Part shown: positions 1,081 to 48,523 of the stretch, one piece after another
Position numbering within the stretch: position 1 is the first letter of the stretch
How the letters are laid out: each line of letters begins with the position of its first letter
IMG/VR virus record: IMGVR_UViG_3300028844_003773
Span: 1-54,922 of that record
Length of the DNA: 54,922 bases
Direction: 5' to 3' (one strand)
Source: a virus
Made by a program: the position numbers and the translations under genes
Notes under the pieces: model-generated
The model's database searches: none
What the model was told of the DNA's origin: nothing
The model's input: the letters and a program-made list of their open reading frames with translations, nothing else

Positions 1081-3471
1081 ATGGCAACAAACATTAAAAT
1101 TACAGCACTATCAGATATAACAAGTGCAAACATGACCTACAACGATTTATTAGCCGTTGTAGACATGAACGGGACACCAGAAACCAAGAAATCAACTGTA
1201 CAATTAGCAGGTAATTTGATTCTCGCAGGTGCTGGTGGAAGTAACTTTGTACCGGCCGCAGTTGCAACTCTTGCAGGAGATGTAACAAACGCCGCTCAAC
1301 CAAACATTACTTCAGTAGGAAATCTGACAAGTGCAAACGTCACAGGAAATTTAGATGCAGGCAACGTAAACGCAACTACAGCAGTTGTAGCCGCATACTT
1401 CTCAGGTGATGGAGCAAACTTAACAAATTTACCTGCTGGTACAGCAACTAAAATTACAGACGGAACATCTAATGTTGATATCCCCACAACAGATGGAAAC
1501 GTAACTGTAGGCGTTGGTGGTACAGCAGACGTATTGATCGTAACTAGCACAGGTGCTAATGTAACTGGAACATTAAATGCAACAGGCATTATCACAGGTG
1601 ATGCAGGCGGAATATCAAACGTTGTTTATGCTAATGTAACTGGTACACCAACACTAGGTAATATCTCCCCTCTTAACTTAGACGGCAATGTATCTAATGT
1701 TCTCAGAGGAGACGGAACATTTGCCGCAGATGCAGAATCTACATATAGTGACAGCAATGTTGTTACTCTATTAAATGCATTCGGCTCTAACACAATTACA
1801 ACAACCGGTCTCGTTACTGCTGACGGTGGCGGAATATCAAACGTCCCATATGCAAACGTAACTGGTACACCTACATTAGGCAACATTTCAACTATCGACA
1901 TCGATGGATCTGGATCAAACGTATTATACGGTAACGGAGTTTTTGCTCCTGCGACAAGTCCAGCATTAACTGGAGACGGTTATCAATTATCAAACATTAC
2001 AGGTGCAAACGTTTCTGGAGAAGTATCATTCGCGGCTACTGCTAACGCAGTTGCTGGTGCTAATGTATCTGGAGAAGTCACAAACGCCGCTACAGCAAAT
2101 GCAGTAGCAGGTGCTAATGTAAGTGGTGAAGTCGGATTCTCAGCAGTTTCTAACTCAGTAGCCGGAGCAAATGTCTCCGGTGAAGTTACTTTTGCCGCAA
2201 CAGCAAACGCAGTTGCTTATGCAAATGTTTCAGGTACACCTACTTTAGGTAATATTTCAACAATCGATATTGACGGTGATGCCGCTAATGTCTTATATGG
2301 TAATGGAGTATTTGCGGCCGCAACGAGTCCAGCATTAACTGGAGATGGTTATCAATTATCAAACATTACAGGTGCTAATGTAAGTGGCGAAGTCGGATTT
2401 GCCGCAGTTGCAAACGCAGTTGCTTTGGCAAACGTATCAGGCGCAGGTAACATTGCGTCAATCAACATTGACGGAGCAGCCGGGAACGTACTATATGGTA
2501 ACGGTGTGTTCGCCGCGGCCCCAGGTGGCAGTACATACGGTGATTCAAACGTTGTTACTTTATTAGGTGCATTTAGTGCTAACCCAATTACAACAACTGG
2601 ATTAATCACAGGTGATGGTGGCGGTCTATCTAATATCGCAGGTGCAAACGTAACTGGAACAATCAATACAGCAGTTCTTGCACAAGAAGTAATCAATTCA
2701 GCACAACCAAATATCGGATCTGTTGGTACTTTAACAGCACTAAATGTTAATGATACAATCGTATCAGTAGGCTTGACAGCAAACACAGGCGACATTACAG
2801 TAACAGCAGGCGTATTTGCAGGTGACGGTGGAAGCATTTCTAACGTAGTCGGTGCTAATGTAACAGGTGAAGTTGGATTCTCAGCAGTTGCTAATAGTGT
2901 TGCTATCGCAAACGTATCTGGTGCAGGTAATATTGCAACAGTTAACTTAGACGGTAACACAGCAAATTACTTAGACGGTACAGGTTCATGGGGACCAGTT
3001 ACAGCAACTAGTGCTACAACAGCAGGTACTGTAACAACAGCCGCACAGCCTAACATTACTAGTCTCGGTACTTTAGTAGACTTAACTGTAACAGGAAACA
3101 TTGCAGGTGCAAACATCAATGCAAACACAAACGGATTTGCAATAGGTTATAAAGAAATTCCCCCTGTAGTATTATCAGCAAATGATACAATCGCACTTGA
3201 AGATTCAGGTAAACATTTCAGATCAACAACAGCAGGAAATATTACATTATCAATTCCAACAAACGCAACTGTTGCATTCCCAACAGGAACAGCAATTAGT
3301 ATTGTTGAACAAGCCGCAGGTAACATTCTAGTTAATGCTATCTCTGGTGTAACTCTTTATCAAGCAGGTAATTCAACTGCAGGTAACAGAGTGATTTCAA
3401 CATATGGAGTTGCGACATTAATGAAAGTTGATACTGATACATGGTTTATTAGCGGCACCGGAGTAAGTTAA
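1081..3471 (+). CDS. long repetitive tail fibre protein
   Basis: 796 residues built from repeats: AAQPNITSVGTLT, GDGGGLSNI, ANVSGEV, GNVLYGNGVFA and similar. These are found in tail fibres of T4-like marine phages and recur in the minus-strand fibre cluster at 37-50 kb. A non-repetitive N-terminus (MATNIKITALSDITSANMT) and a C-terminal domain from about residue 685 (GYKEIPPVV... to ...WFISGTGVS) cap it. The last codons (TGVS, stop) and the start of the next gene are part of a 34-bp sequence repeated at the next gene junction. The ATG of the next gene directly follows its stop codon. Role: host recognition, inferred. Confidence 0.75.
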   Translation: MATNIKITALSDITSANMTYNDLLAVVDMNGTPETKKSTVQLAGNLILAGAGGSNFVPAAVATLAGDVTNAAQPNITSVGNLTSANVTGNLDAGNVNATTAVVAAYFSGDGANLTNLPAGTATKITDGTSNVDIPTTDGNVTVGVGGTADVLIVTSTGANVTGTLNATGIITGDAGGISNVVYANVTGTPTLGNISPLNLDGNVSNVLRGDGTFAADAESTYSDSNVVTLLNAFGSNTITTTGLVTADGGGISNVPYANVTGTPTLGNISTIDIDGSGSNVLYGNGVFAPATSPALTGDGYQLSNITGANVSGEVSFAATANAVAGANVSGEVTNAATANAVAGANVSGEVGFSAVSNSVAGANVSGEVTFAATANAVAYANVSGTPTLGNISTIDIDGDAANVLYGNGVFAAATSPALTGDGYQLSNITGANVSGEVGFAAVANAVALANVSGAGNIASINIDGAAGNVLYGNGVFAAAPGGSTYGDSNVVTLLGAFSANPITTTGLITGDGGGLSNIAGANVTGTINTAVLAQEVINSAQPNIGSVGTLTALNVNDTIVSVGLTANTGDITVTAGVFAGDGGSISNVVGANVTGEVGFSAVANSVAIANVSGAGNIATVNLDGNTANYLDGTGSWGPVTATSATTAGTVTTAAQPNITSLGTLVDLTVTGNIAGANINANTNGFAIGYKEIPPVVLSANDTIALEDSGKHFRSTTAGNITLSIPTNATVAFPTGTAISIVEQAAGNILVNAISGVTLYQAGNSTAGNRVISTYGVATLMKVDTDTWFISGTGVS

Positions 3472-3489
3472 ATGGCAGGCGCATTGATG
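3456..3489 (+). repeat. 34-bp perfect direct repeat, copy 1
   Basis: This covers the last codons of the long fibre gene, its stop, and the first six codons (MAGALM) of the next gene. An identical 34-bp copy is at 4286-4319. The two copies frame the lectin-like gene. Confidence 0.95.
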
Positions 3490-4284
3490 ATGGCGCAAAT
3501 GTCTTGGCATAGTGCTGAAACCGAATTATTATCTCCCACAAATCTTGGAGCAGATGTCTGGGTTGACTTCAGTGATCCAACATCATACACTACAGTAGGA
3601 AGCACAATCACAGCCGTAACAGATAAAGCAAGTAACTTTACAATAACGGTTGACGGTACACCAACTACTGGCACCACACTAAACAGTTTGGCTACAGGAA
3701 CTTTTGACGGTAATGAAAGTCTTATTAGTACTGGAACTGGTCCTTATGCAGATAGTGGAAATCATTATGCAGTAGGCATTTTTCAATGGGCAAGTACTAC
3801 TAGTACAAGAGATAGTTTTTGGAGTGCTGATGGTAGCAGAACTTATGCAGTCAGCAGTAGTGATTCTAGTAACGGTTGGCCTGGCGAAATTGATTATGAT
3901 GGATCTAATAGTATTTCATCAGGTAAAGCAAAACAAAACTTTACAGTATCCGTTTCGCAAAACACTTGGACTATAGTTAGTACATCATTTAATAAAACAG
4001 GTGATGAAATCTTTGGTAGAATAAACGGTTCTCAAGCCTCAGCAGGTGATCCATATACTAACTCTATGAATACTACAGCAGACTTTAGATTAATGCGTAA
4101 CAGAGCCTCTGTTGAATTAGCAGGTAAAGCCGCTGAATTCTTTTGGGTAGCAGGACCTACAGGCACAGGTGGTACTGATATTTCTAACGTAGAAAAAGCA
4201 GAAGGTTACATAGCATGGAAATGGGGACTACAAGGTAACTTACCAGTAAGTCACCCATACAAAACTGCCGCACCCACGACATGA
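3472..4284 (+). CDS. concanavalin A/LamG-like adhesin
   Basis: 270 residues. After a short tag (MAGALMMAQMSWHS) the sequence reads as a beta-sandwich lectin-type domain: ADVWVDFSDPTSYTT, an ITAVTDKASN strand, NTWTIVSTSFN, GRINGSQAS, and a terminal EKAEGYIAWKWGLQGNLPVSHPY typical of phage and bacterial LamG-like proteins (last strand plus helix EGYIAWKWGL). No signal peptide. It probably binds a carbohydrate on the host surface as a fibre-tip protein. It starts immediately after the fibre stop codon and is framed by a perfect 34-bp repeat, which suggests exchange as a cassette. Fold assignment is by pattern only. Confidence 0.65.
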   Translation: MAGALMMAQMSWHSAETELLSPTNLGADVWVDFSDPTSYTTVGSTITAVTDKASNFTITVDGTPTTGTTLNSLATGTFDGNESLISTGTGPYADSGNHYAVGIFQWASTTSTRDSFWSADGSRTYAVSSSDSSNGWPGEIDYDGSNSISSGKAKQNFTVSVSQNTWTIVSTSFNKTGDEIFGRINGSQASAGDPYTNSMNTTADFRLMRNRASVELAGKAAEFFWVAGPTGTGGTDISNVEKAEGYIAWKWGLQGNLPVSHPYKTAAPTT

Positions 4285-4285
4285 A

Positions 4286-4319
4286 CACCGGAGTAAGTTA
4301 AATGGCAGGCGCATTGATG
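4286..4319 (+). repeat. 34-bp perfect direct repeat, copy 2
   Basis: Identical to 3456-3489. The left part here is non-coding: it is a leftover of the C-terminal codons and stop of the fibre gene, placed after the TGA of the lectin-like gene. The right part encodes MAGALM of the next protein. Confidence 0.95.
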
Positions 4320-5276
4320 GTGTCTCAAATGAACTCTCACAGAGACCCAGAATACTTTAGCGGCCCGCTCGGTGATGTTGTCGGTGACGGCAGTGATTTC
4401 TTTAAACGTGAAGTTTCAACTAACGGTACAAGAATTATGGCGGCTGGTGCTGTAGGTGGTCAACTAGCAGTTCCTGATGTTTGGTTAGAAAAAGTTGCCC
4501 GCATGTTTCAATTATTCACAGATCCAACAGGTGCAGGTATTAACATTAACTTACAAAGACAATTTATTCAAACACTAAGCGGAGATAGAGAAACTTATCA
4601 TGTAGGTTTCCCAACTCTACAAAGAGTAGCAAGAGGAGCAGGAGATGATTACACTCCAAACTTCTTAACTGATGCGGGAATTATTAGTTGGAACCTAACA
4701 AACTTATACGACACTCACGTACAAAATGATATGGTGTGGTATTTAAATTCGTCAGGTGATGGATACGGTGACGGTGATACAGATGCACAGGAAGTTATTG
4801 AACACGTAATGCATACATTACACATGTGCGGCTTACCTGCAGAAGATATAAAATTATATCCTTACATAAGTTCTGATTGGAACACTAGTGATTTGTACAA
4901 TGCAATGGTACAAGCATATGATGCAGGCAAGTGGGATCCATCAGGATATGAACCAAGTCCCGGTGCATTCAAAACTGACCCTGATGCGTTTGAATTAGCC
5001 GCAAAAGAATACTTGTATCTACTAAACTTTTGTATGTTTGACTACTCAGATTTATGGGAGGGAGGAAGTTTATCTCCGGAATGGACAGACGATATGCGTA
5101 CACCATCAGGCATTCAAACAAATAATGCATTAGGTTATGCATTTTTTAACACATGGATTGCCCCAGTTATCAGTAAGCCATCACTTGTTACTATCAGAAG
5201 TATATTTGGAGATGGCAACACACCAGCACAAGACGATCCTAGCCTATCAGGTTCATCAGGATATGTTCCTGGCTAA
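4302..5276 (+). CDS. fibre-associated protein of unknown function
   Basis: 324 residues with no recognised family. It shares the N-terminal tag MAGALM-x2-QM with the preceding lectin-like protein, so both may dock by the same peptide. The body is rich in aromatic and acidic residues and has a histidine cluster (EVIEHVMHTLHMCGLP, about residues 162-177) that might bind metal, but it is not a canonical HExxH motif. It lacks the Gly/Thr repeats of the fibre genes. Last gene before a strong terminator. Possibly a host-binding tip or enzyme on the fibre; this is a guess from context. Confidence 0.55.
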   Translation: MAGALMVSQMNSHRDPEYFSGPLGDVVGDGSDFFKREVSTNGTRIMAAGAVGGQLAVPDVWLEKVARMFQLFTDPTGAGININLQRQFIQTLSGDRETYHVGFPTLQRVARGAGDDYTPNFLTDAGIISWNLTNLYDTHVQNDMVWYLNSSGDGYGDGDTDAQEVIEHVMHTLHMCGLPAEDIKLYPYISSDWNTSDLYNAMVQAYDAGKWDPSGYEPSPGAFKTDPDAFELAAKEYLYLLNFCMFDYSDLWEGGSLSPEWTDDMRTPSGIQTNNALGYAFFNTWIAPVISKPSLVTIRSIFGDGNTPAQDDPSLSGSSGYVPG

Positions 5277-5290
5277 ATTTTACCCAATAA

Positions 5291-5317
5291 AAAAGGGCCC
5301 GAAAGCCCTTTTTTTGT
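5291..5317 (+). terminator. bidirectional intrinsic terminator
   Basis: Stem AAAAGGGC/GCCCTTTT with a six-base loop (5299-5304) and a T run on the plus strand; the A run gives a T run on the minus strand. It separates the plus fibre operon from the convergent minus genes. Confidence 0.9.
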
Positions 5318-5328
5318 GGCTGTTGTTA

Positions 5329-5682
5329 TTAACTAACTACAGCATTCAACACTGATTCTAATGTATCAGCATCTTGCTTACCGCGTTCACGGATAGCATC
5401 AAGTGACATGGTCACTTTTACTTTACCAGATGTCTTAGAACGATCTGCAATCGCATCTGAGATCGTTGCTTGATCTTCAGGTGACGAGAACATGTCATGC
5501 GTAAGCATGAATTCTAGTGCATCTAGTTTAGTCATTGATTCAGGTAGAGAGATAAACTCGCAACGAGTTGCACCGCCCTTGCTGAATTGCTTGACACGCC
5601 TAACCATGTCATCTGTGAATCGGACTTTTGAATTACCGTTGTGTTCAGTAATACCAACTACCGAAAAAGTTTGAGTTGTCAT
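5329..5682 (-). CDS. conserved phage hypothetical protein
   Basis: 117 residues; no enzymatic motif recognised. The N-terminal half is beta-rich (FSVVGITEHNGNSKVRF) and the C-terminal half is helical and charged. Good Shine-Dalgarno (AGGAG, 7 nt before ATG). It is last in a small early gene group on the minus strand, preceded by a 93-nt intercistronic region with two tandem hairpins. Function unknown. Confidence 0.7.
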   Translation of the reverse strand: MTTQTFSVVGITEHNGNSKVRFTDDMVRRVKQFSKGGATRCEFISLPESMTKLDALEFMLTHDMFSSPEDQATISDAIADRSKTSGKVKVTMSLDAIRERGKQDADTLESVLNAVVS

Positions 5683-5727
5683 AATGTTTCTCCTAAAATA
5701 TAAACTAAGTTTAACTCATTAAAATAC

Positions 5728-5770
5728 ATGCAACTCCCATTGCATACCTTTGTGGCATTATTGCCACAAA
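5728..5770 (-). other. two tandem hairpins between small genes
   Basis: A perfect 9-bp stem with a 4-base loop (5749-5757 with 5762-5770, TTTGTGGCA/TGCCACAAA) and a 6-bp stem (5728-5733 with 5740-5745). Neither is followed by a T run on the minus strand, so they are not simple terminators. They lie in the leader of the downstream gene and could be processing or stability elements. Confidence 0.6.
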
Positions 5771-5775
5771 TTCTG

Positions 5776-5949
5776 TTACACCCTTGAGGCGTATTCGTTG
5801 ATCAACTGACTGCCGTACAATGATTTGAAGATATTACTAGCCTCAAATGCATTTGCCGCAGTACAGTATACTCTTTGAGGATACCCGTTGATGTTAGCCA
5901 CAGTCCACCATTCATGTAGACTGTTGCTATATTGACTTGATGCCTGCAT
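5776..5949 (-). CDS. small phage protein, 57 aa
   Basis: An ORF starting MQASSQYSNSLHEWW and ending NEYASRV. Its ATG overlaps the stop of the upstream gene (TAATG), with GGAGG in the upstream coding sequence as ribosome-binding site, a strong sign of translational coupling. No known domain; aromatic-rich start and polar middle. Same operon as its neighbours behind the early promoter at 6256-6284. Confidence 0.6.
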   Translation of the reverse strand: MQASSQYSNSLHEWWTVANINGYPQRVYCTAANAFEASNIFKSLYGSQLINEYASRV

Positions 5950-6224
5950 TACACTACCTCCAGCATTGACAGGGGAACATTGTATCGTCCACCTCTCATT
6001 TCAACAATTGCTTTTTTGATGTTGACTTTTACAACAACACCCTGTTCACGTTTAGTCTTTTGAACAATCCAAACATTATCTCCTACTGAGATAGAACGTT
6101 TAGCATTGCTTACGGATACAGATACGATGAAAGAACGCAACTCATTCAATTGCTGAAGATCAAAATGACCTTTGCTAATTGCTGATTTGATATCATCCAA
6201 CTTCTGATTACTTGTTATTGACAT
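5949..6224 (-). CDS. small protein with SH3/KOW-like C-terminus
   Basis: 91 residues. The first half is helical (LDDIKSAISKGHFDLQQLNELRSFI); the second half (VGDNVWIVQKTKREQGVVVKVNIKKAIVEM) looks like a small KOW/SH3-type barrel often used to bind nucleic acid. AGGAG lies upstream of the ATG, and a consensus sigma70-type promoter lies 30-60 nt upstream, so it is expected early in infection. Specific function unknown. Confidence 0.65.
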   Translation of the reverse strand: MSITSNQKLDDIKSAISKGHFDLQQLNELRSFIVSVSVSNAKRSISVGDNVWIVQKTKREQGVVVKVNIKKAIVEMRGGRYNVPLSMLEVV

Positions 6225-6255
6225 AAACTTCTCCTTTGATTTAATTTATACAACT

Positions 6256-6284
6256 ATTATAGCAAAACGGGTACCCAATGTCAA
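6256..6284 (-). promoter_or_regulatory. sigma70-type early promoter with palindrome
   Basis: Minus strand TTGACA (6284-6279), a 17-bp spacer and TATAAT (6261-6256): a perfect consensus. The spacer begins TTGGGTACCC, containing the palindrome GGGTACCC, which recurs at the same place in the promoter at 6835-6863. Confidence 0.9.
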
Positions 6285-6292
6285 GCCTTTTT

Positions 6293-6556
6293 TTAATATT
6301 TTTGACATTTTTTTAGTGCCCATTTTTCGACTACAGGAAGACCAAATTCGTCTTCATCGACACAAACATACGCAACAGTCTTTTTGACCAAACCATATCG
6401 GTATGGAGAGCCGATAGTATCACCTACCCAAATTTTGTGGGGGAAGTCCTCACAAAACACCATATGATCATCATTTACAGACCATTCAAAGTAGTTACCA
6501 CATTCCTTTTCAGTGAAAACACCGATAGGATTGACGGTATGCGTATAATAAGCCAT
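6293..6556 (-). CDS. hypothetical protein, 87 aa
   Basis: Starts MAYYTHTVNPIGVFTEKE; rich in aromatic and acidic residues, with three cysteines and a central VGDTIGSPYRYGLVKKT stretch. No family recognised. SD AAGGAA, 6 nt before ATG. Second gene behind the early promoter at 6835-6863. Confidence 0.6.
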   Translation of the reverse strand: MAYYTHTVNPIGVFTEKECGNYFEWSVNDDHMVFCEDFPHKIWVGDTIGSPYRYGLVKKTVAYVCVDEDEFGLPVVEKWALKKCQKY

Positions 6557-6566
6557 GAAGTATTCC

Positions 6567-6800
6567 TTAAGCGGTTACGAGACGATCAGCAAGAGTGATC
6601 TTGCCAGTATAGCAATCAGCCAGATAGTCAAATTGCTCAATGTAATCAATGTTAGCAGGGAGATCAGAATTGCTATCTGCTAGATCCATGTAACAATCTG
6701 CATCGACAAAGTTCCAGTTGATAGAACCATCTTTGTTGATGTTTTCAGCAGTAGTAACTGCTCGGTTGAAGGCTTTTGCTAGTTGAGTGTTGATTTGCAT
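6567..6800 (-). CDS. hypothetical protein, 77 aa
   Basis: Small acidic protein (MQINTQLAKAFNRAV..., NWNFVDADCYMDL...). Resembles short early proteins of T4-like marine phages; no catalytic motif. SD-like AAAGGGAA upstream. First gene after the early promoter at 6835-6863. Confidence 0.6.
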   Translation of the reverse strand: MQINTQLAKAFNRAVTTAENINKDGSINWNFVDADCYMDLADSNSDLPANIDYIEQFDYLADCYTGKITLADRLVTA

Positions 6801-6834
6801 ATATTTCCCTTTCCTTTATTGTTTAATATAATAT

Positions 6835-6863
6835 ATTATACTGGATTGGGTACCCAATGTCAA
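6835..6863 (-). promoter_or_regulatory. sigma70-type early promoter with palindrome
   Basis: TTGACA (6863-6858), 17-bp spacer, TATAAT (6840-6835). The first 10 spacer bases are identical to those of the promoter at 6256-6284, and here the palindrome extends to 12 bp (TTGGGTACCCAA). Confidence 0.9.
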
Positions 6864-6903
6864 CCTTTTTCTTCAAAAAAGTGAAATTAAATTGTCTTAT
6901 AAA

Positions 6904-7503
6904 TCAATAGATTGCATCATTTGTGTAAAAAACATGCCTTCCTACAGTAGCCACATGCGTCATTTTGCGTGACCAATGAGGTTTTACATAGTCTGCATGG
7001 TAATATCTGACGTTTTCTAGCCCATCGACACGATATCCTTTGTCCATAACTTGCCGGGCAATTTCATATGATTTGTCCCAATTGGCTCCTTTTGGGCGTG
7101 TCCAATGTCGGGACCTTTTATTTGCCCACGAAAACTGATATCTATCTAGTACTACTTTACAGACAGTATTGGGATATTGGCGACTTGCTACACGATTAAG
7201 AGTAACTTGAGCCACAGCATATTTGCCTATATCTGGCTCTATACCTGCTTCATGGAAGATATTTTTTGCTAGACAGAATACATCTATATCTTCATACACC
7301 ATTTCAGAGTTATCTACAATTACAACTTGAGGTGCCATATCTTCTTTAATTATCTTGGTCTCACGTACAGGAACTTCGATAATGATGATTTCGGGTTGGA
7401 TGTATTGCACTTGGGGTGCAGGTGTGGATACGGGTTCGATAAGTTTTGATACACTAAACACCATCAAAACTAGTACACAGGCTTTTATTAGAGTCTGTTT
7501 CAT
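6904..7503 (-). CDS. SleB-type cell wall hydrolase
   Basis: 199 residues: an N-terminal membrane anchor or signal (residues 5-20, LIKACVLVLMVFSVS), a Val/Ile/Pro-rich linker to about residue 70, then a Hydrolase_2 (SleB) domain with NIFHEAGIEPDIGKYAVAQVTLNRV (probable catalytic Glu85) and the downstream QFSWANK and GLENVRYYHADYV blocks. The family cleaves peptidoglycan glycan strands. Strong SD (AAGGAG) and a late-type promoter upstream fit a role in lysis or wall penetration. The N-terminal anchor suggests export by the host Sec system. Confidence 0.85.
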   Translation of the reverse strand: MKQTLIKACVLVLMVFSVSKLIEPVSTPAPQVQYIQPEIIIIEVPVRETKIIKEDMAPQVVIVDNSEMVYEDIDVFCLAKNIFHEAGIEPDIGKYAVAQVTLNRVASRQYPNTVCKVVLDRYQFSWANKRSRHWTRPKGANWDKSYEIARQVMDKGYRVDGLENVRYYHADYVKPHWSRKMTHVATVGRHVFYTNDAIY

Positions 7504-24806: not shown

Positions 24807-25613
24807 TTACTTTTTAACTTTAAAGATGTTAAGTTCAATAAAGAAGAACGCAACCAACCATAAGAAAGAGTCCCAAAAGTCTAAGAAGTCTCCCAAGAAT
24901 CCCCAATATGTAGCACATGCAAATAGTACAGAATATAATACCACTTTTGCTTGTTTACTGTAAGGAACAACTTTATCTACTTTACCTAATCTCAAGTCTG
25001 CTTCAAGTAAAATTACTACTAGCATCCAAGTAACTGAGTTAGTTACATCTACTAATGCTAACCATTGGATAGCAGAAAAGTCACTAGCACTTCCAATAAC
25101 GGATGTGTCTCCAAGCCTAAACAAGTCTTGTCCGTTTAACGCATTACAGTTTTCAGAAACAATCATTGGGTAGATGTCTAAATCTTCAACTAATGCAAAG
25201 TTTTGACCAATTAGTGAACAAGCATCAGCAATTTCATATGGTGAAATGCCATATACTAGTAATACTTTTGAGATATAGCCATAACATGCATATGCAATAA
25301 AACTATAACTGAATACCCGTAACAGATTAAAACCGATATTAACCGATGGTTTTGCTAGTGTGTGTTGTCTCAATACAGCAGTTTCTAGTTCAAACAGCAA
25401 CAATAAAACGACCCATGCCGCTGTATCTATTGTTGCCGCATATCCTTCAATAATGTTGAAAAGACTGACTCCTTGAGTCATAGTTTGTACTACTGCCGCG
25501 GCTTCTTCCTGATAAAACAAAAAGATATTATATGTTAGAAATGCATAAACAGAATATTTAAATGCTTTAAACAGAGCCTCTGTTGGATTTAAGAGTATAT
25601 TAGATGTGTTCAT
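24807..25613 (-). CDS. polytopic membrane protein of unknown function
   Basis: 268 residues with about six hydrophobic spans (around residues 17-35, 60-80, 95-120, 185-210, 225-245, 248-265) and a non-membrane loop of about 50 residues with two Cys (SENCNALNGQDLFRLGDTS). No transporter signature recognised. Its ATG overlaps the peroxiredoxin stop, so the two proteins are produced together. Possibly a redox-related or envelope protein; function unknown. Confidence 0.6.
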   Translation of the reverse strand: MNTSNILLNPTEALFKAFKYSVYAFLTYNIFLFYQEEAAAVVQTMTQGVSLFNIIEGYAATIDTAAWVVLLLLFELETAVLRQHTLAKPSVNIGFNLLRVFSYSFIAYACYGYISKVLLVYGISPYEIADACSLIGQNFALVEDLDIYPMIVSENCNALNGQDLFRLGDTSVIGSASDFSAIQWLALVDVTNSVTWMLVVILLEADLRLGKVDKVVPYSKQAKVVLYSVLFACATYWGFLGDFLDFWDSFLWLVAFFFIELNIFKVKK

Positions 25614-26128
25614 AGTAGTTCATCTCCTTCGCTCCAAGCACAGCCTGTAAGTCCACCTGCTTGTAATGCTTTCAATGTTCTTAATGCTTCATCTGCATTT
25701 CTGCCTGTATCTAGTGCATTGATCGATACGTGTTGAATAGTTCTTTCTTTATCAAAGATAAATGTTGCTCTATAACAAACACCTGCTTCTTCATGTACAA
25801 TACCTAATTCACGTGATAATGCTAGTCCACAGTCTGCGGCTAGAGTATGTTTGATATCACCTATCAATGCATTCTCTTTCTTCCATGCAAGTTTGCAGAA
25901 TTCATTGTCGCCACTGATACCTACAACGTTAGCATGTTCTGCTAAAACGTCCATACCAGCAATTTCCGTTGGGCAAACAAATGTAAAGTCTTTAGGATAG
26001 AAATAAACTACAGACCAATCTTTTTTATGTGGGGTGTAACTTTCATGTATGTCTACTTGGACAAACTCGTTGTTTTCATCAATACCCGGCAATGAGAATG
26101 CGGGAAATTTATCGCCTACTGTTTTCAA
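25610..26128 (-). CDS. AhpC/TSA-family 2-Cys peroxiredoxin
   Basis: 172 residues. Peroxidatic Cys52 in YFYPKDFTFVCPTEI, conserved Arg in GVCYRATFIFD, and a probable resolving Cys163 in TGCAWSEGDELL. Reduces peroxides using a thiol donor, possibly the phage glutaredoxin or host thioredoxin. Late promoter and AGGAG upstream. A phage peroxiredoxin would protect an Fe-dependent reductase and Fe-S proteins during infection; inference. Confidence 0.88.
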   Translation of the reverse strand: MKTVGDKFPAFSLPGIDENNEFVQVDIHESYTPHKKDWSVVYFYPKDFTFVCPTEIAGMDVLAEHANVVGISGDNEFCKLAWKKENALIGDIKHTLAADCGLALSRELGIVHEEAGVCYRATFIFDKERTIQHVSINALDTGRNADEALRTLKALQAGGLTGCAWSEGDELL

Positions 26129-26157
26129 TATGTTCTCCTAAATAAGTTATTGTGTAG

Positions 26158-26165
26158 TATTTACT
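26158..26165 (-). promoter_or_regulatory. T4-type late promoter (AGTAAATA)
   Basis: Predicted start about 26152; 24-nt leader with AGGAG before the peroxiredoxin ATG. Confidence 0.6.
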
Positions 26166-26257
26166 TGATTTATAAAGAGTAAAAATATTTTTTGAAGGAA
26201 AAGGCATATATACTTATATGTCACAATTTTGTAACATTACTGTCACATAGGAGAAAC

Positions 26258-26341
26258 ATGGCACGAAAATACTTTAAAGCCTTTCATAAATTAATGAAAT
26301 CCGGAAGATTAAACAAAGTAATAAAATTAGTTACTCACTAG
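26258..26341 (+). CDS. tiny basic peptide, 27 aa
   Basis: MARKYFKAFHKLMKSGRLNK... with AGGAG 6 nt before the ATG. Basic and amphipathic. It overlaps the 3' end of a convergent tiny gene by 11 bp. Coding status rests on the ribosome-binding site only. Confidence 0.35.
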   Translation: MARKYFKAFHKLMKSGRLNKVIKLVTH

Positions 26342-26450
26342 GTTTTACTTCAATTTTAACTTTCTTTTTCTGATTAGAAAACTGAATTCTACGATTCCTT
26401 TGTTGGTTGGATCTCAATCGATTCGCATGTCTACGTCTACTCGCACTCAT
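26331..26450 (-). CDS. tiny highly basic peptide, 39 aa
   Basis: MSASRRRHANRLRSNQQRNRR... then KKKVKIEVKPSE; AAGGGG 9 nt before the ATG. Arg-rich, probably RNA or DNA binding if expressed. Confidence 0.45.
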   Translation of the reverse strand: MSASRRRHANRLRSNQQRNRRIQFSNQKKKVKIEVKPSE

Positions 26451-26470
26451 TAGATATGTCCCCTTATTAA

Positions 26471-27448
26471 CTATCTAAGTTTTATAAATTTTTGATCTAG
26501 TTTTTCATAAAAATAATCAGCAACAAACCCATTAGTTTGTTTACTCATATGCCTAAAGTCTCTATTGCGGTAAGCATATCCACCGCATCTTTCATTAAGT
26601 TGTTTCATAAAGAAATGTCTATCTACATCACTTAGCATATTATTCATGTGATTATGTCCTGCTAATTGTGTATAGATAGCATCTAATGAAGGCCAGTTCG
26701 CATTAGAATATGTTTGATAATCTTGTTGAGCCATTAACATAAAGACTTCATAAGGTATGTCTTTCCATGTTAATGGAATCTGTCTCATATAATCAAATGC
26801 ATCTGGAAAATGCGATAGTAAAATTTTTCGCATATCAGGGTTCCAGCACCACGGGGGAATAAATGCAATTTCTGATCCAATTGGCCATTCATATTCTTTT
26901 AAGATATGTATTTTTTGCTCAGTAGAGTTAGCATCTGCAAGTTGATCTGCTGAGGCTCCACCATGCAAGTTGAATAGACAAAAAGTATGTTGTACATCAA
27001 AGTACTTTCTCATTTTGTCTACGATAAGATGATAAGAGTCGGGACCTAATCCATCAACTCCACCATTAAGAATTGGAATATTAACTCGTTCTTGTAACTG
27101 ACTGGGCCAACTATGTTCCAACGGTCCACCAACATTCATAGTGAAACTATCACCAATAGCAAGTATAATTTTTGCTTTTTTGCCGTCTATGTTTAATGCT
27201 TCATAATCATAGTCAGCACGAAATCCCCATGAATTAAAAGTGTATTGAAAATCTTTTTCTGGGTGTAGTTGCATATATGCATTATAAAATGGCATCTTGC
27301 TAAACATTTCATCTGATGCACACTTATCTACTGTTTTATTTCGATATTTTAATAACTGTCGCCATAGTTTCTTTGGTAATCCGAATCCTTTGGGTGACAT
27401 ATCCATTTCTGTTTTAAAATCCTTGTAGACGTTGTTTTGCTTTTTCAT
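26471..27448 (-). CDS. SGNH/GDSL-type hydrolase
   Basis: 325 residues. Block I IILAIGDSFTMNVGG (Ser nucleophile about residue 100), NGGVDGLGPDSY (block II/III Gly), and near the end NRDFRHMSKQTNGFVADYF with Asp-x2-His as the remaining catalytic pair. Likely an esterase acting on an acylated glycan or lipid. Overlaps the DUF1289 gene by 35 nt. Confidence 0.7.
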   Translation of the reverse strand: MKKQNNVYKDFKTEMDMSPKGFGLPKKLWRQLLKYRNKTVDKCASDEMFSKMPFYNAYMQLHPEKDFQYTFNSWGFRADYDYEALNIDGKKAKIILAIGDSFTMNVGGPLEHSWPSQLQERVNIPILNGGVDGLGPDSYHLIVDKMRKYFDVQHTFCLFNLHGGASADQLADANSTEQKIHILKEYEWPIGSEIAFIPPWCWNPDMRKILLSHFPDAFDYMRQIPLTWKDIPYEVFMLMAQQDYQTYSNANWPSLDAIYTQLAGHNHMNNMLSDVDRHFFMKQLNERCGGYAYRNRDFRHMSKQTNGFVADYFYEKLDQKFIKLR

Positions 27449-27620
27449 TTATTAACATTTTGTCTTCGTTAGTATAGATTGACCAATTACCAATTTCATC
27501 TATTGTTCTACCGCAACCTTGACATACTTGATGAGTTTCAAAATCTAAGTTACATATACCTTTGCAAGGTGATCTAACTGTTTTTGTCTCTGTAATCTTT
27601 GACTGCGGCTTTGATTGCAT
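27414..27620 (-). CDS. DUF1289 small Cys-rich protein
   Basis: 68 residues. SPCKGICNLDFETHQVCQGCGRTIDEIGNW matches DUF1289 (SPC-x3-C-x-LD-x5-C-x-GCGRT-x-DEI-x2-W): four Cys that probably bind Zn or an Fe-S cluster. In Proteobacteria this family is of unknown function. It overlaps iscU by 47 nt, so it is strongly coupled to Fe-S assembly here. Confidence 0.8.
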   Translation of the reverse strand: MQSKPQSKITETKTVRSPCKGICNLDFETHQVCQGCGRTIDEIGNWSIYTNEDKMLINEKAKQRLQGF

Positions 27621-27954
27621 CTTCTGCTAAAACTGAACAGTGGATCTTGACCGGGGGGAGTGCGAGTTCTTCCGCGAGTTCAGTGTTTCTAATTGCTTCT
27701 GCTTGTTCGAGGGTTTGTCCTTTGACCCATTCTGTGAGGAGACTACTTGATGCAATTGCAGACCCGCACCCATACGTTTTAAACTTAGCATCTTCAATAA
27801 CTCCTTCGTCATTTACTTTAATTTGTAACCTCATCACGTCTCCGCATGCCGGTGCACCTACCATTCCCGTACCTACACCTTCTTCATTAGGATCCCATTT
27901 GCCAACATTACGAGGATTTTCATAATGATCAATTACTTTATCACTATAAGCCAT
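27574..27954 (-). CDS. iscU: IscU-type Fe-S cluster scaffold
   Basis: 126 residues from MAYSDKVIDHYENPRNVG. All functional residues are present: Cys37 and Asp39 in GAPACGD, Cys63 in TYGCGSAIASSS, the chaperone-binding LPPVK (99-103) and Cys106. Full length for the family, so it should be active with host IscS and HscA. Its ATG overlaps the stop of a 17-codon upstream ORF (27944-27997) with a strong Shine-Dalgarno site. An A-type carrier is encoded at the left edge of the window. Confidence 0.92.
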   Translation of the reverse strand: MAYSDKVIDHYENPRNVGKWDPNEEGVGTGMVGAPACGDVMRLQIKVNDEGVIEDAKFKTYGCGSAIASSSLLTEWVKGQTLEQAEAIRNTELAEELALPPVKIHCSVLAEDAIKAAVKDYRDKNS

Positions 27955-27997
27955 GAGTACCAACTCTCGTTGATACTACATTGATAGTCTGATTCAT
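27944..27997 (-). CDS. 17-codon upstream ORF of iscU
   Basis: MNQTINVVSTRVGTHGL, with AAAGGAG before the ATG; its TAG lies 8-10 nt inside iscU. It probably delivers ribosomes to iscU, which has only a weak site of its own (GAGAG). Contains no Cys, so not an obvious cysteine attenuator. Confidence 0.5.
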   Translation of the reverse strand: MNQTINVVSTRVGTHGL

Positions 27998-28019
27998 AAT
28001 TAGACTCCTTTGTCTAACT

Positions 28020-29153
28020 CTATTTATTCTTAACTGATTTCTTCTTTGGCTTTTCTTCTGGGAACAAGTCGAGTTTTTCCCAAGGTAAATATTCTTTTCC
28101 GAAGTGACCATAATTAGTAGTCGCTCCGTATATAGGAGAGAATAAATTAAATCTATCGATAATACCTTTAGGTGATAAATCTACGTTATCTGTAATCCAT
28201 TTAGTTAAATCTCTGCTATCTCTATCACTTTCTACATATACACTTGTTGGCTGATCAACTCCTATCGCATAACTTAATTGAATTGTTGCCCAATCTGCTT
28301 GCCCGGATGCTACAATATTTTTTGCAAGATAACGAGCCATATACGCCGCTGATCTATCTACTTTGGATGGATCTTTACCACTAAATGCTCCGCCACCATG
28401 AGGTGCACTTCCACCATATGTATCAACAATAATCTTACGACCAGTTAAGCCTGAATCTCCATCTGGGCCACCAACAACAAATCTACCTGTTGGGTTAATT
28501 AAGTATTGTGTCTTTTCATCTAAGAGTTCTTGGGGTAAAGTCTTTTGTATTACTTCTTGTATCTGTACCCTCACAGTCTCTATATCGATCTGATCGACAT
28601 GCTGAGTAGAACAAACTACTTTATCTATACGTTTTACTGTGCTATCGTCATTGTATTCTACGGTAACTTGTGATTTAGAATCAGGACCTAACCAAGGAAT
28701 AATTCCTTGCTTTCTTACTGCTGTAAGCATTTCTACAATTCTATGTGAGTAATAAAGAGGGGCAGGCATATATGTTTCTGTGTCTTTAGTTGCATAACCA
28801 AACATAATACCTTGATCACCTGCACCAAAACTATCTGTGCCTAATGCAATATCAGGCGATTGACCATGTAATAGATTTTGAATGTCTAGGTTATTCCAAT
28901 GAAAACCTTCTTGTTCATAACCGATATTCTTAACGACTCTACGTACAAGGTATTCAACATCTAAACTATCAATTGCCCCTTTGTATTCTCCTGCAACTAC
29001 TACTTTATTTGTAGTTACTAGAGTTTCACATGCACAACGTAAAGTAGGATCTCTATGTTGCATAAATGAATCAAGTATAGCATCACTAATTGCATCTGCA
29101 ACTTTATCTGGGTGTCCTTCTGAGACACTTTCACTCGTAAAATAATAACTCAT
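28020..29153 (-). CDS. metK: S-adenosylmethionine synthetase
   Basis: 377 residues, close to the bacterial length. SESVSEGHPDKVADAISDAILD (ATP/methionine site), GAGDQGIMFGYA hexapeptide signature and GGGAFSGKDPSKVDRSAAYMAR loop are intact. Makes SAM from ATP and methionine. SD AAAGGAC before the ATG and a near-consensus early promoter upstream. A phage MetK would support methylation, including by the methyltransferase-like protein at 24.3 kb, or replenish SAM. Confidence 0.95.
   Translation of the reverse strand: MSYYFTSESVSEGHPDKVADAISDAILDSFMQHRDPTLRCACETLVTTNKVVVAGEYKGAIDSLDVEYLVRRVVKNIGYEQEGFHWNNLDIQNLLHGQSPDIALGTDSFGAGDQGIMFGYATKDTETYMPAPLYYSHRIVEMLTAVRKQGIIPWLGPDSKSQVTVEYNDDSTVKRIDKVVCSTQHVDQIDIETVRVQIQEVIQKTLPQELLDEKTQYLINPTGRFVVGGPDGDSGLTGRKIIVDTYGGSAPHGGGAFSGKDPSKVDRSAAYMARYLAKNIVASGQADWATIQLSYAIGVDQPTSVYVESDRDSRDLTKWITDNVDLSPKGIIDRFNLFSPIYGATTNYGHFGKEYLPWEKLDLFPEEKPKKKSVKNK
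28021..28028 (-). promoter_or_regulatory. late promoter motif (AATAAATA) upstream of iscU
   Basis: Lies in the last codons of metK; predicted start about 28015, giving a leader that includes the short upstream ORF. Confidence 0.5.
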
Positions 29154-29169
29154 ATATGTCCTTTAGTAT

Positions 29170-29198
29170 ATTGTATACTAATATTTAATACGAGTCAA
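29170..29198 (-). promoter_or_regulatory. sigma70-type early promoter of metK
   Basis: TTGACT (29198-29193), 17-bp spacer, TACAAT (29175-29170). The spacer contains ATTAAATA, a late-type motif, so early and late signals may overlap. Confidence 0.8.
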
Positions 29199-29217
29199 GG
29201 GGTAGGTAGAAAAAGTT

Positions 29218-32200
29218 TTATCCTAGTAGGTCCCAACAGTCGCAGTTACAATGAATAACTTGATCGATTGCTGATTCAGCAGATTGTTTCGGAACAAACG
29301 GGTTATCAGGGCCGGAAGGTTCACCGCCACCAGAATCTGTACCTGCGCCTCCGCCTCCGCCATCAAATTGAGTACCAGTAGGATCATCTTCTGTGCCGTC
29401 ACCAGGTGTTCTAATTATTGTATCAGGAGGACCGACAGATATAATTGAACCTATTACTGGGTATTCGGCGTCTGTAAACAAAGGTGTAAAATCTCCGGGT
29501 GCTTCGCCTGTTGTAGGAACTAAGAAGAATCCATCATCTACTACCCCGGGTGATGTTACTGTAGGTGATCCCGGAGGTCCTATTTGTGGCCAGCCTGGAT
29601 TAACCCATTCAGTGTCATTGATAACAATGCCCTCTTGTGCTCCTGGCACTGTTCCGTTTGTGACTAATGTTTGTATTGTTGAAGGACTAGTAACGTCTGG
29701 AATATTATTGTTGATTGGTATACCACAATTTGAAAGAGCCTTCTCATTTTTTTCTTGTCTTAATTGTGCCATTATGTTTTGTCCAACATTACAATCTCTG
29801 TCTACAATTAACTCTAATGTTGTTCTTGCTTGAAGACCTTTCAGAAAATCAGAATAATCTGGCATACTGTCTACAAATGAAACCAAGTCTTGGTTACTAT
29901 AAGTAAAAGGATCTCTAGGAATTTCTACTCTACCTATAGAATTATATCTAGTACGTTGTTCAACTTTCATCTGTTTTCCCATAATATTCCAAATCATATT
30001 TACTTGACTTATAGAATTCAGAGACTGCTTAGAGATTTCCAAAATTTCATTGTTAGCCGCATTAATATAATATTGAGGAACAGAAGAAAAACTATAACTA
30101 GATCCATAAGGCGAATTTGTTCCGCCGTCTGCTTTTCTCCAAGGATAAGTTCCTGTTGGGGGATATTCAGGCTCTGCAATTACATCTGTATTAGCAACTG
30201 GTGCGCCGTATCCCGGATTTGCATCTTGGTAATTAGGATAAACACCATCTGGGTCTTCAAAACCCGGTGGAGGATCATTCGGTGCCGGTATGGGTGCGTA
30301 TGGCACCGGAGATTGCCAATCCGCAGTTGGGATATTTGTAGCAAAATATACTGCTCCGCCGCCACTAACTTCGGCGCCTTGAACTCTTCCAAACGTTCCA
30401 CCACCGTTGCTACCTGTTTGTGCATCGTCTCTGCCTATACTTGATACTTCGATACTTGAACCATCACTATTAAATGTTGTGTAGTTAATAGTGGCGACCG
30501 GATCAGGGGCACCGCCTCTACCATATCCGCCACCGTCATTAGTTAATAAAGTATATTCTCCTTGACTTGGTTTAATTCTATACCCCGCGGCCCACAATGA
30601 AGGTTGCCATTGATTATTTGTGTATGAGGGAGGATCAGTTTCTGGTGCAAGAATAAACAGATAAGGATTATAATCTGGTAGTGCGGGATCTGGTTGATAA
30701 TCCGGATTAGAAACATTTGCTACTGCATCTGTAGTTCTTGTACAAGTGTATTCTAATTGTAAAGACATTGCCATTGCTTCCCAGGATACTGCTAAAAACA
30801 ATTGTTGATAAATGGCTGCTAGATCAGAAATCTCAGCATCGTCTGTAACATTCTGTATTTCTTTGTCGCCGGCTAGAAAATCATATAACTCACGCCAGTT
30901 GTATGGATTACCTGACATATTGCCAAAAAAGTCATCCATTCTATAGTTGCCATGTACATTAGATCCTAGTCCCATTTGTGCTTGAATTTCACTTACTAAA
31001 TCTTGGTCTACTGGTTTTTGTAATGAACTTCCAGATGCCTCTGTTCCATTTGCATCAGTAGTATCTTCTGATAGTAATTCTAAAAATTGAATACAGTTGC
31101 CCAATTTACCTGGAGTAATTTGTTCAATATTACTAATTTGTAAAAAAGCATATCTTACTGCGCCGGCTGCTACTCCGATAGCCTCAGGCAAAATTTCATT
31201 TGGAAACCCTAAATATGAATCATACCCCTCCGGAAGGTTTCTTAGACTAATTCCAGAAATATTGGCTTCGTTATTTGTCGGTTGAGGTTGACCTGCAGTA
31301 AATAATGTACCGACAACACTTCTTACTTGGTCAGATGTAAGTGCCGAGTTTACACCGTCACCATAATCATATAGGGTATCGTCAGGGTAAATTAAATAAT
31401 ATGTTTTAGAGCCAGTAGGCAATCCGACTTGTGTATTGTATAACGGCACTGTAAGGGTTTTTCTAGTATTATAAAATAAATACCATGGGTTTAATAAATC
31501 TGCTAATGTGCGTATTGTAATAGCATCATTGAAGTCAGGGTTTAATTGGTCTGCTAAAAAGAAACGATTTGTTGTTAATGATGATACACATACTCGTAAG
31601 TTTTTACCGGCTATCGATAAAAATGCTGTATATATTTTACGTTCTTGCGATGCTGTACCGTGGTCATTTTTAGTAGATAAAATTTTAATTTCTTTTTCAG
31701 AAAGTCCAGCAGAGCCCAAAGCCAAATTTAAATCTGTTGACAATCCACCTGCATCATATAATTGTTGTAGTAAAGTTGAGGGGAAACCAAAACGATCTAA
31801 CCGTTTAAAGTCAAATATTTTCTGCAATCTTTGCAAATCTCTTGCAAGACCTTGGGTATATAAAGTTACTCCAGTAACATCTCCAGTAATTAAATCATTC
31901 ATGTTACTGAATGAACCTTCTAAGAAAGTTTGTGCATTCTGTGCAGTAGAAATTGTTTTATTATTGTACTGAATAAAACTATAGGCTTCGTTAAATGATC
32001 CTAAGAAATCTTCATATCTAGGAGATGGATTAGAATCTAATACCGCCCCTTCAAGTCCTTCTTTAGCATGCCAATTAAATTCGTTGTGTGCTTGTAAAGC
32101 ATGACATCTAATCCAACCCCATTGAGTAATACTTTTGTTAGGGTTTGACGAATTGTAGGGTATCCAAGTTGCTTGTTGACCATAGTCTGTATTACCAGTT

Positions 32201-32625
32201 ACAGAGTATCCTGCATTTGCAGGACCCGGTAATGCACCTGTGACTCCTGCTGATTCTCCGTAATCTACTGCTTTACATGTTGTTGGGTTTGTTGGATGAT
32301 ATGCCCATGATTCTGATGCATCTTCTGCTATGTATGTGGGAGGTTTTGAATTTCCTAACGCATAACAACTACCATAACCATTAATTGAAATAAGATTATC
32401 GTAAGTACCAGTAGGCACAACACCCCTTGTATAACCGTCATTAATAGACCATACAAGCATTCTAAGCACGGTATTGTCAACTAGTGTACCGAATGTATAC
32501 TGAGAGTTTGATCTGCTGATTCCCATAAAAAACTGAGCATTAGGATTTATGCGAATACATCTATTTTGTAAGATTCCGCCTAATACGTTTTGACCTAAGG
32601 GACTTTGTTTACCTGTATCTGCCAT
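29218..32625 (-). CDS. large virion structural protein (tail/baseplate associated)
   Basis: 1135 residues. The N-terminus MADTGKQSPLGQNVLGG and the following body are typical of a large conserved structural protein of T4-like marine phages. The second half is rich in Pro, Gly, Tyr and Asp (residues 650-850 and 1020-1120), likely extended linkers. It is followed upstream in the operon by the PAAR spike-tip protein, which supports a baseplate or tail location. SD AGGA. No enzymatic motif seen. Confidence 0.7.
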   Translation of the reverse strand: MADTGKQSPLGQNVLGGILQNRCIRINPNAQFFMGISRSNSQYTFGTLVDNTVLRMLVWSINDGYTRGVVPTGTYDNLISINGYGSCYALGNSKPPTYIAEDASESWAYHPTNPTTCKAVDYGESAGVTGALPGPANAGYSVTGNTDYGQQATWIPYNSSNPNKSITQWGWIRCHALQAHNEFNWHAKEGLEGAVLDSNPSPRYEDFLGSFNEAYSFIQYNNKTISTAQNAQTFLEGSFSNMNDLITGDVTGVTLYTQGLARDLQRLQKIFDFKRLDRFGFPSTLLQQLYDAGGLSTDLNLALGSAGLSEKEIKILSTKNDHGTASQERKIYTAFLSIAGKNLRVCVSSLTTNRFFLADQLNPDFNDAITIRTLADLLNPWYLFYNTRKTLTVPLYNTQVGLPTGSKTYYLIYPDDTLYDYGDGVNSALTSDQVRSVVGTLFTAGQPQPTNNEANISGISLRNLPEGYDSYLGFPNEILPEAIGVAAGAVRYAFLQISNIEQITPGKLGNCIQFLELLSEDTTDANGTEASGSSLQKPVDQDLVSEIQAQMGLGSNVHGNYRMDDFFGNMSGNPYNWRELYDFLAGDKEIQNVTDDAEISDLAAIYQQLFLAVSWEAMAMSLQLEYTCTRTTDAVANVSNPDYQPDPALPDYNPYLFILAPETDPPSYTNNQWQPSLWAAGYRIKPSQGEYTLLTNDGGGYGRGGAPDPVATINYTTFNSDGSSIEVSSIGRDDAQTGSNGGGTFGRVQGAEVSGGGAVYFATNIPTADWQSPVPYAPIPAPNDPPPGFEDPDGVYPNYQDANPGYGAPVANTDVIAEPEYPPTGTYPWRKADGGTNSPYGSSYSFSSVPQYYINAANNEILEISKQSLNSISQVNMIWNIMGKQMKVEQRTRYNSIGRVEIPRDPFTYSNQDLVSFVDSMPDYSDFLKGLQARTTLELIVDRDCNVGQNIMAQLRQEKNEKALSNCGIPINNNIPDVTSPSTIQTLVTNGTVPGAQEGIVINDTEWVNPGWPQIGPPGSPTVTSPGVVDDGFFLVPTTGEAPGDFTPLFTDAEYPVIGSIISVGPPDTIIRTPGDGTEDDPTGTQFDGGGGGAGTDSGGGEPSGPDNPFVPKQSAESAIDQVIHCNCDCWDLLG

Positions 32626-32633
32626 ATATTATC

Positions 32634-32912
32634 CTAGGGCACGAATACCGTATCTGCGCCTTCAACAATTTTATGTTTACAATCGTTGCCGGAACCTACT
32701 CTAAGTACTGGTTTCCCTTCACAAAAAACTGTAGGGCTACCTTCAGTTGTCTTTGCAGATTTATGAGGTTTTTTATTTGGTTTTGGATTATGAGGAGAAA
32801 TTTCACTAACATGCAGACCTACAGGTTTTCCTTCTGCAAAGACAGTTTCTGAGCCTTTGAGAATTTTTCCACCTGTAGTGTTTTTATCTCCCTTTCGGCT
32901 TAATTTAGCCAT
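32634..32912 (-). CDS. PAAR-domain spike tip protein
   Basis: 92 residues. RKGDKNTTGGKILKGSETVFAEGKPVGLHVSE and the second half SPTVFCEGKPVLRVGSGNDCKHKIVEGADTVFVP fit the PAAR beta-cone that caps phage gp5-type spikes (T4 gp5.4) and binds a metal via His/Cys. It punctures the outer membrane during injection. Nine nt upstream of the large structural gene in the same operon. Confidence 0.8.
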   Translation of the reverse strand: MAKLSRKGDKNTTGGKILKGSETVFAEGKPVGLHVSEISPHNPKPNKKPHKSAKTTEGSPTVFCEGKPVLRVGSGNDCKHKIVEGADTVFVP

Positions 32913-32918
32913 GTACTT

Positions 32919-33236
32919 TTATCCTACTAATATTTTTTTCTCGGGTACAGTTACCCCAGTAGTAGCCTCTCTATATTTGTCTTTAACTTCATCTGCTGTA
33001 ACTGCAACAAGAGAAACACTATTAGTATTTAGTCTTGGGTTTTCTGCCATTGAAGCAGAAAAGACACTAGGCACTAATGCCATGCCAGTTTGACTAGGTG
33101 CAAGAGATACAGGATCTTCTAGTTCTAAAAAACCATCTTCATTTCCTACTACTTTGGATACGATTTCTTCTCCACTAAAAATTTTAAGTGTGTACACCTT
33201 TCCTAGTTCAATCATTGATATTGCTTTATTTTCCAT
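32919..33236 (-). CDS. Sm-like small phage protein
   Basis: 105 residues. GKVYTLKIFSGEEIVSKVVGNEDGFLELEDPVSLAPS resembles the Sm1 strand order of LSM/Hfq-like folds and is frequent in T4-like marine phages without known function. The start codon overlaps the last base of the glutaredoxin gene. May bind RNA or act as a virion component. Confidence 0.5.
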   Translation of the reverse strand: MENKAISMIELGKVYTLKIFSGEEIVSKVVGNEDGFLELEDPVSLAPSQTGMALVPSVFSASMAENPRLNTNSVSLVAVTADEVKDKYREATTGVTVPEKKILVG

Positions 33237-33460
33237 TATGACTCCAGTTTTTGTTTAAGTTCAGTAAATCCACCAACGTAATCTTCATTCAAAAAGATTT
33301 GAGGTGCTGTACGTGCATTGGGAACTACTGCTAATAAATCTTCTAAAGTATATCCATGTCCTATTTTTTTAATTTCTGTATCAATACCTTCTGCTTCTAA
33401 TAGTTTAATTGCTTGATCACAATAGGTACAATTATCTTTACTCCATACAATGGCTTTCAT
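33236..33460 (-). CDS. glutaredoxin
   Basis: 74 residues. Active site CTYC (11-14), cis-Pro motif TAPQIF and GGFTELKQKL near the end. Reduces disulfides, here most likely as electron donor to the adjacent NrdA/NrdB reductase, as in T4 where a glutaredoxin-like thioredoxin serves. AGGAG lies 5 nt before the ATG. Full length for a phage glutaredoxin. Confidence 0.92.
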   Translation of the reverse strand: MKAIVWSKDNCTYCDQAIKLLEAEGIDTEIKKIGHGYTLEDLLAVVPNARTAPQIFLNEDYVGGFTELKQKLES

Positions 33461-33487
33461 TCTTTCTCCTAGTTAATGTTATACGTA

Positions 33488-33495
33488 TATTTAAT
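33488..33495 (-). promoter_or_regulatory. late promoter motif (ATTAAATA)
   Basis: Predicted start about 33482, 22-nt leader with AGGAG before the glutaredoxin ATG. Confidence 0.5.
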
Positions 33496-33520
33496 ACGAT
33501 TTGATGTGGTCAAATAAATT

Positions 33521-34624: not shown

Positions 34625-34633
34625 AATTAACCC

Positions 34634-43335: not shown

Positions 43336-43337
43336 TA

Positions 43338-46259: not shown

Positions 46260-46261
46260 TT

Positions 46262-48439: not shown

Positions 48440-48465
48440 GGTTTGGTCTCCGTAAACTATAATAG

Positions 48466-48473
48466 TATTTAGT
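48466..48473 (-). promoter_or_regulatory. T4-type late promoter (ACTAAATA)
   Basis: Predicted start about 48460; leader of about 20 nt with GGAG before the ATG at 48439. Confidence 0.65.
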
Positions 48474-48523
48474 GTTTTGTTTCAATAAAGAGTGCTAAGA
48501 TATGGTTTTTTACCCTTTTATTT

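Follow-up and report, generated by a model that had tools for sequence, protein, structure and literature searches.

Within the window, by which we mean the whole stretch of DNA analyzed (a single metagenome record of 54,922 bp from a marine phage), a long tail-fiber gene is followed by two tip genes, the second of which lies in a stretch of 988 bp with its own copy of a short repeat (Table 1). The left edge of this added stretch is sharp, and the right edge falls within the shared TAAATTTTACCC or next to it. A GGAG sequence that resembles a ribosome site for the gene that follows lies among the final codons of the fiber gene. Elsewhere in the window, the minus strand bears a run of large fiber-like genes (41785-50053) with a shared N-terminal motif (FNSVGGFSV, FNSVAGFSV, FNSLTGYSV). 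A further minus-strand region (25610-36967) carries genes that, judging by eye, we take to be host-like (peroxiredoxin-like, IscU-like, S-adenosylmethionine synthetase-like, and ribonucleotide reductase-like).

Table 1. Features of the fiber and tip-gene locus (positions are those of the window)
Feature	Position	Strand	Size	Description
Long tail-fiber gene	1081..3471	+	796 aa	Open reading frame; C-terminal end DTWFISGTGVS
Repeat copy 1	3456..3489	+	34 bp	Fiber C-terminal codons, TAA, and ATG/tag codons (ATGGCAGGCGCATTGATG) of the lectin-like gene
Resident lectin-like gene	3472..4284	+	270 aa	Tag MAGALMMAQM followed by a predicted ConA-like sandwich; same place in five relatives
Added stretch	4286..5273	+	988 bp	Missing from all five relatives
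Repeat copy 2	4286..4319	+	34 bp	Untranslated fiber end with GGAG, TAA, and ATG/tag codons of the added gene
Added gene	4302..5276	+	324 aa	14-residue N-terminal tag MAGALMVSQMNSHR followed by the DN domain (residues 15-322)
TAA and terminator-like region	5274..5315	+		AAAAAAGGGCCCGAAAGCCCTTTTTTT; directly 3' of the lectin-like gene in relatives

The two copies of the repeat are identical, as the first-pass annotation had reported, and the exact match ends at 34 bp, where the bases flanking the two copies differ. No further copy with ≤3 mismatches was found in the 54,922-bp window, no match to the repeat arose in 100 dinucleotide shuffles of the window, and base-shuffled windows had no exact repeat longer than 15-17 nt. 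The repeat is real and lies above chance expectation. Beyond the 34 bp, the copies extend to a 46-nt match at 93% (MAGALM-MA-QM vs. MAGALM-VS-QM in translation). Separately, the longest exact direct repeat of the window measures 57 nt and so exceeds the one described here.

The positions of the open reading frames bear out the original description of the repeated unit as the end of the fiber gene, its stop codon, and the first six codons of the next gene. Copy 2 begins right after the TGA of the lectin-like gene (4282-4284), with its fiber codons untranslated, as had also been pointed out, and closes with the same six codons (MAGALM) that open the added gene. Within the unit, a Shine-Dalgarno-like GGAG lies 8 nt before the ATG, and the start codon and the remainder of MAGALM follow. 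This spacing is a standard ribosome-site layout, and we infer that it functions as one. The copied unit would then supply the added gene with both a ribosome site and an N-terminal tag matching such fiber ends. An ability to act as the ribosome site of the second gene would explain why untranslated fiber codons precede it.

Queries with the lectin-like protein and with the fiber C terminus recovered the same five IMG/VR contigs, hereafter the relatives (L081, also L106; L082, also L104; L083, also L114; L086, also L105; L088, also L103). Over its C-terminal 110 aa, the fiber is 97-99% identical in four of them, and the fifth offers a 36-aa match. All five have the gene order fiber, MAGAMMMAQM-tagged lectin-like gene, terminator, and minus-strand gene, with one junction copy in each and the downstream tip gene absent. 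In other words, the gene content of this junction differs among related phages when it is compared as had been proposed at the outset, and the relatives present the empty site: their lectin stop leads to the terminator (ACATAAATTTTACCC) without intervening sequence. What stands 3' of that stop is ACATAAATTTTACCCAATAAAAAAGGGCCC or a close variant in most relatives, and ACATGAA/CACCGG...GGC/TAAATTTTACCCAATAAAAAAGGGCCC in the window (slashes mark the joins). Consistent with this, blastn matches window positions 3043-4285 and 5274-7352 to adjoining positions of L081, and none of the five has 4286-5273. No DN match was found elsewhere in the sequence covered for the five relatives (up to 128 kb, possibly fragments), and a search of IMG/VR with the junction pattern gave four other contigs, with a single copy in each. 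As assembled, the lectin-like gene carries a frameshift or a break in L086 (2445-3257) and in L083 (102-824). Given this comparison, we consider it probable that the resident lectin-like gene was joined by a second tip gene, placed behind it by way of a copy of the 34-bp junction, and that the fiber could thereby bear two tip proteins.

The first-pass annotation had read the polarity the other way, taking the bracketed lectin-like gene (3456-4319) as the newcomer, either inserted at the junction or duplicated there and then diverged. Insertion of that gene at the repeat, between the fiber gene and the downstream gene, has in its favor that the lectin-like gene is what the two perfect copies enclose. 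It is nonetheless highly improbable, and we reject it as the origin of the arrangement: all five relatives have the lectin-like gene without the downstream gene, and in no relative does the downstream gene occur without the lectin. On this comparison, the lectin-like gene is the resident, and the second repeat copy arrived with the downstream gene. Nor is the added gene a diverged duplicate of the lectin-like gene, as the two bodies are nonhomologous (22% in a forced global alignment) and belong to different domain families. Alternatively, both genes could be original, with DN subsequently lost by the five relatives. Such a loss is formally compatible with the five genomes, and a distant phage (L107) carries a tandem pair of tagged genes; even so, we think it unlikely, given that the same clean stop-to-terminator junction, with no remnant, is seen in 5/5 relatives despite lectin bodies down to 55% identity, and that recombination between the 34-bp copies would delete the lectin-like gene rather than DN. 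In addition, the window copies are closer to each other than to the relatives, whose junction units are 2-4 of 34 positions off the identical pair in the window. That identity fits recent copying within the lineage; gene conversion from one copy to the other would fit as well.

Two further explanations concern the assembly and the behavior of the repeat. The source is a metagenome record, and the window could be a chimera of co-occurring fiber-lectin and fiber-DN alleles, both of which would share the fiber end and the terminator. This we judge very unlikely, as the join TGAA/CACCGG is supplied by neither allele as a shared k-mer, and no fiber-DN allele with the MAGALM tag was seen in IMG/VR; that left junction is not common to the relatives, and it argues against a simple mis-join without proving the point. 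It is also conceivable that the repeat is an active switch, with recombination between the copies deleting the lectin-like gene (830 bp) and putting DN directly behind the fiber, so that a single population would hold two tip types. The copies are perfect direct repeats that keep register with both reading frames, and their recombination would leave an intact tag-DN gene right after the fiber gene, but this deleted form (fiber followed by MAGALM-DN without the lectin) was not found in the junction and fiber-end searches of IMG/VR, and we regard such switching as rather unlikely.

Addition of a second gene behind the resident lectin-like gene, the reading that we prefer, concerns a site that is variable in its own right. 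Throughout the lineage, the lectin-like protein carries an N-terminal tag with the consensus MAGA[LM]M.AQM, and its ATG directly follows the fiber TAA in the window and in four relatives, with a 1-nt overlap in L086. The tag is conserved on different bodies, as the first-pass annotation had anticipated. That of L088 is alike at 13/14 positions to those of L081 and L082, with bodies only 54-55% identical (54-56% when the L088 body is compared with all the others), and the fiber end of L088 has 99% protein identity to that of the window despite the divergent lectin body. In L109, L111, and L112, 13-14 of 14 tag positions are alike and the bodies are dissimilar, and the two tip genes of the window itself agree at 9/14 tag positions and have unrelated bodies. 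The best match of the window switches across the slot, from L082 at the fiber end (96%) to L086 in the lectin body (96%) and L081 in the gene just downstream (99.8%). Given such mosaicism, the slot evidently recombines, and its original description as a swappable position behind the fiber is supported.

An M[AS]G tag follows in 6/6 cases where the fiber end fits W..G.G[VL][ST] and in 0/49 cases with other fiber ends, although the rows are related and the P value is only indicative. Position and co-occurrence suggest that the tag docks the tip protein on the fiber end. DN also follows the fiber in two further fiber and tag systems, standing alone in L042 and being fused with LamG and the lectin-like domain in one chain in L031. 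L107 (6327-8026) encodes two tandem tagged tip genes (MAGIMLTTIG..., MSGIMLQLVN...) behind a related fiber, with no DNA repeat. No long repeat was found at the tip-gene junctions of L107, L031, or L042, and thus the repeat-framed form is not general. A match to a degenerate, tag-only pattern (L183) was set aside as a single, unrelated contig.

The DN domain of the added protein is 51-79% identical to its IMG/VR phage matches, and at least 222 IMG/VR stretches encode a relative of it. Among cyanophages, 85 records carry DN, with 72-78% identity among the matches listed. We found at least 116 distinct copies, bacterial ones included. The DN matches that we inspected start at residue 15 or later and have unrelated sequence upstream, and the window is alone among 116 distinct copies in having the MAGALM tag on DN; in short, the tag is a graft. 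That the tag might instead be native to DN was suggested by tblastn matches of L026 and S-B43 from residue 1, which proved tagless on inspection.

The contexts of DN are varied. For the 116 copies (again including bacterial ones), the 103 N-side flanks that were long enough fell into 25 clusters and the 89 C-side flanks into 20 at E 1e-4, although more sensitive methods could merge some of these. Hosts of the domain include a cyanophage protein behind gp9 that is annotated as a baseplate wedge subunit, a baseplate wedge initiator, a LamG protein, and fibers. In two subtilase virion proteins (L074, 7548-10436; L009, 3163-6168), DN interrupts Peptidase_S8 and separates its start from the remainder, after the first catalytic motif region, and in a third (L057, 5340-9680) it is placed after the subtilase domain. 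Particularly direct is a pair of S-RIM12 genomes: the protein behind gp9 contains a 319-residue in-frame DN insert in RW_06_0310 (L206, NC_047716.1) and lacks it in Sn_07_0910 (L205, KX349321.1), and the adjoining 200-residue flanks are 94% and 97% identical. DN has evidently moved repeatedly between tail proteins of marine phages. In a tree, the copies behind a fiber (window, L031, and L042) do not group together and thus look like separate captures, although the bootstrap is not fully settled. One copy (L058, 8001-9090) appears to be circularly permuted, with the DN start (DPEYNNGPLIS) coming after the DN C terminus.

Bacterial homologs of DN (40-64% identity) occur in marine assemblies assigned to Flavobacteriaceae, Opitutales, Actinomycetota, and Planktomarina, although a viral origin is possible for some of the contigs. 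Several have signal-peptide or lipoprotein-like N termini, as judged by eye. Among these homologs (L189-L204), we also noted an InlB B-repeat in L194 and L195 and a weakly scoring peptidoglycan-binding domain in L202.

Family searches placed neither tip protein. Pfam and PHROGs gave no convincing family for either of them, and NCBIfam none for DN; there was no Pfam lectin match for the lectin-like protein, sequence searches against solved structures returned nothing useful, and no glycine-rich repeats were found in either protein. The model of the lectin-like protein has low confidence (pLDDT 63) and matches ConA-like folds at TM about 0.4-0.5. For the DN model (pLDDT 85.6), Foldseek found no match at E 0.001 in PDB or in a viral library. 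A second-look structure aligner, which covers only chains preselected by Foldseek, ranked the zincin metallopeptidases PPEP-1, -2, and -3 on top (Z about 7; the best, 7.1 for PPEP-2, is below the Z 8 treated as clear), followed by other zincins. Across 42 aligned copies, E164, E167, H168, and H171 are invariant (ExxEHxxH, within a conserved helix ExxEHxxHT), and EHxxH recurs in those bacterial homologs that cover the motif region. Unlike zincins, DN is without the HExxH metal-binding motif and has EHxxH in the corresponding place. The structural matches are suggestive of a distantly zincin-like domain. Ig-like domains are reportedly promiscuous in virion proteins of tailed phages (Fraser and colleagues in 2006 are said to have described this), and DN shares their in-frame presence or absence across many unrelated virion proteins. 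Unlike them, it has about 305 residues, a mixed alpha/beta and predicted zincin-like fold, and strong conservation around a His/Glu-rich helix.

The history that we propose would start from a lineage with a long fiber and one tagged lectin-like tip gene. To this would have been added a piece that opens with a junction copy (GGAG and spacer, stop, ATG, tag), continues with DN, and stops at the common terminator. With the copied unit, the new gene could be translated and its product would bear the tag, and if the tag docks proteins on the fiber end, the fiber could hold two tip proteins, lectin-like and DN. Both would then be present in the virion, where DN may act on the host surface. Two sources would be most likely: a sister phage whose slot holds DN, or the junction of the phage itself, copied to a place before a DN domain. 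The simplest route would be recombination between a lectin allele and a tag-DN slot allele, with a left join that has no evident homology and a right join within the shared terminator; alternatively, the junction could have been copied ahead of a DN taken from another virion protein of the phage. Our searches found no donor for either route, and no phage with the fiber directly before MAGALM-DN. Much more tentatively, and with some doubt, we raise the possibility that DN is an undescribed metal-binding and perhaps proteolytic family, shared with secreted bacterial proteins, which marine phages move in frame from one virion protein to another and which became a separate tip protein here through the copied 34-bp unit; a short portable tag would then suffice to recruit a new domain to the fiber tip.

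The nearest known counterpart is gp38, encoded in the gene 37/38 region of T-even phages (T2/PP01/S16-type), an exchange-prone region; gp38 touches gp37 through its N terminus, and its variable remainder makes the contact with the receptor (PMC12892980). As with gp38, the tip protein described here is encoded directly behind the distal fiber gene and combines a conserved N-terminal part with an exchanged distal part. Unlike gp38, the conserved part is a short tag of about 10-14 residues, in place of a more extensive N-terminal domain (a 113-residue swap is reported in PMC12892980), the bodies are lectin-like and DN by predicted fold (ConA-like and zincin-like) with no glycine-rich polyglycine II domain, and there are two tandem tip genes with a copied start region. 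In the Alteromonas phages V22 and A5, the fiber gene is likewise followed directly by another gene, and marine phages have exchanged this module; the V22 product, gp27, is a chaperone, with gp9 of A5 as its homolog (PMC7289586; PMC10579305). The copied junction and short tag seen here are not described for V22 or A5 in the accessible text of those reports (PMC7289586; PMC10579305). Tip genes behind fiber genes and their exchange are therefore already known, from gp38 (PMC12892980) and from the Alteromonas phages (PMC7289586; PMC10579305). Two things appear to be new, as far as our literature search extended: the copied unit of start and tag, and DN as a domain family.

The addition of a tip gene is resolved here to the base level, including which part was copied, which part was resident, and where the added piece ends. 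The case suggests that a copied unit of only 34 bp can bring all that a new protein needs for its synthesis and for targeting to the fiber. It also points to a widespread and apparently unnamed domain in the tails of ocean phages, which occurs in secreted proteins of marine bacteria as well.
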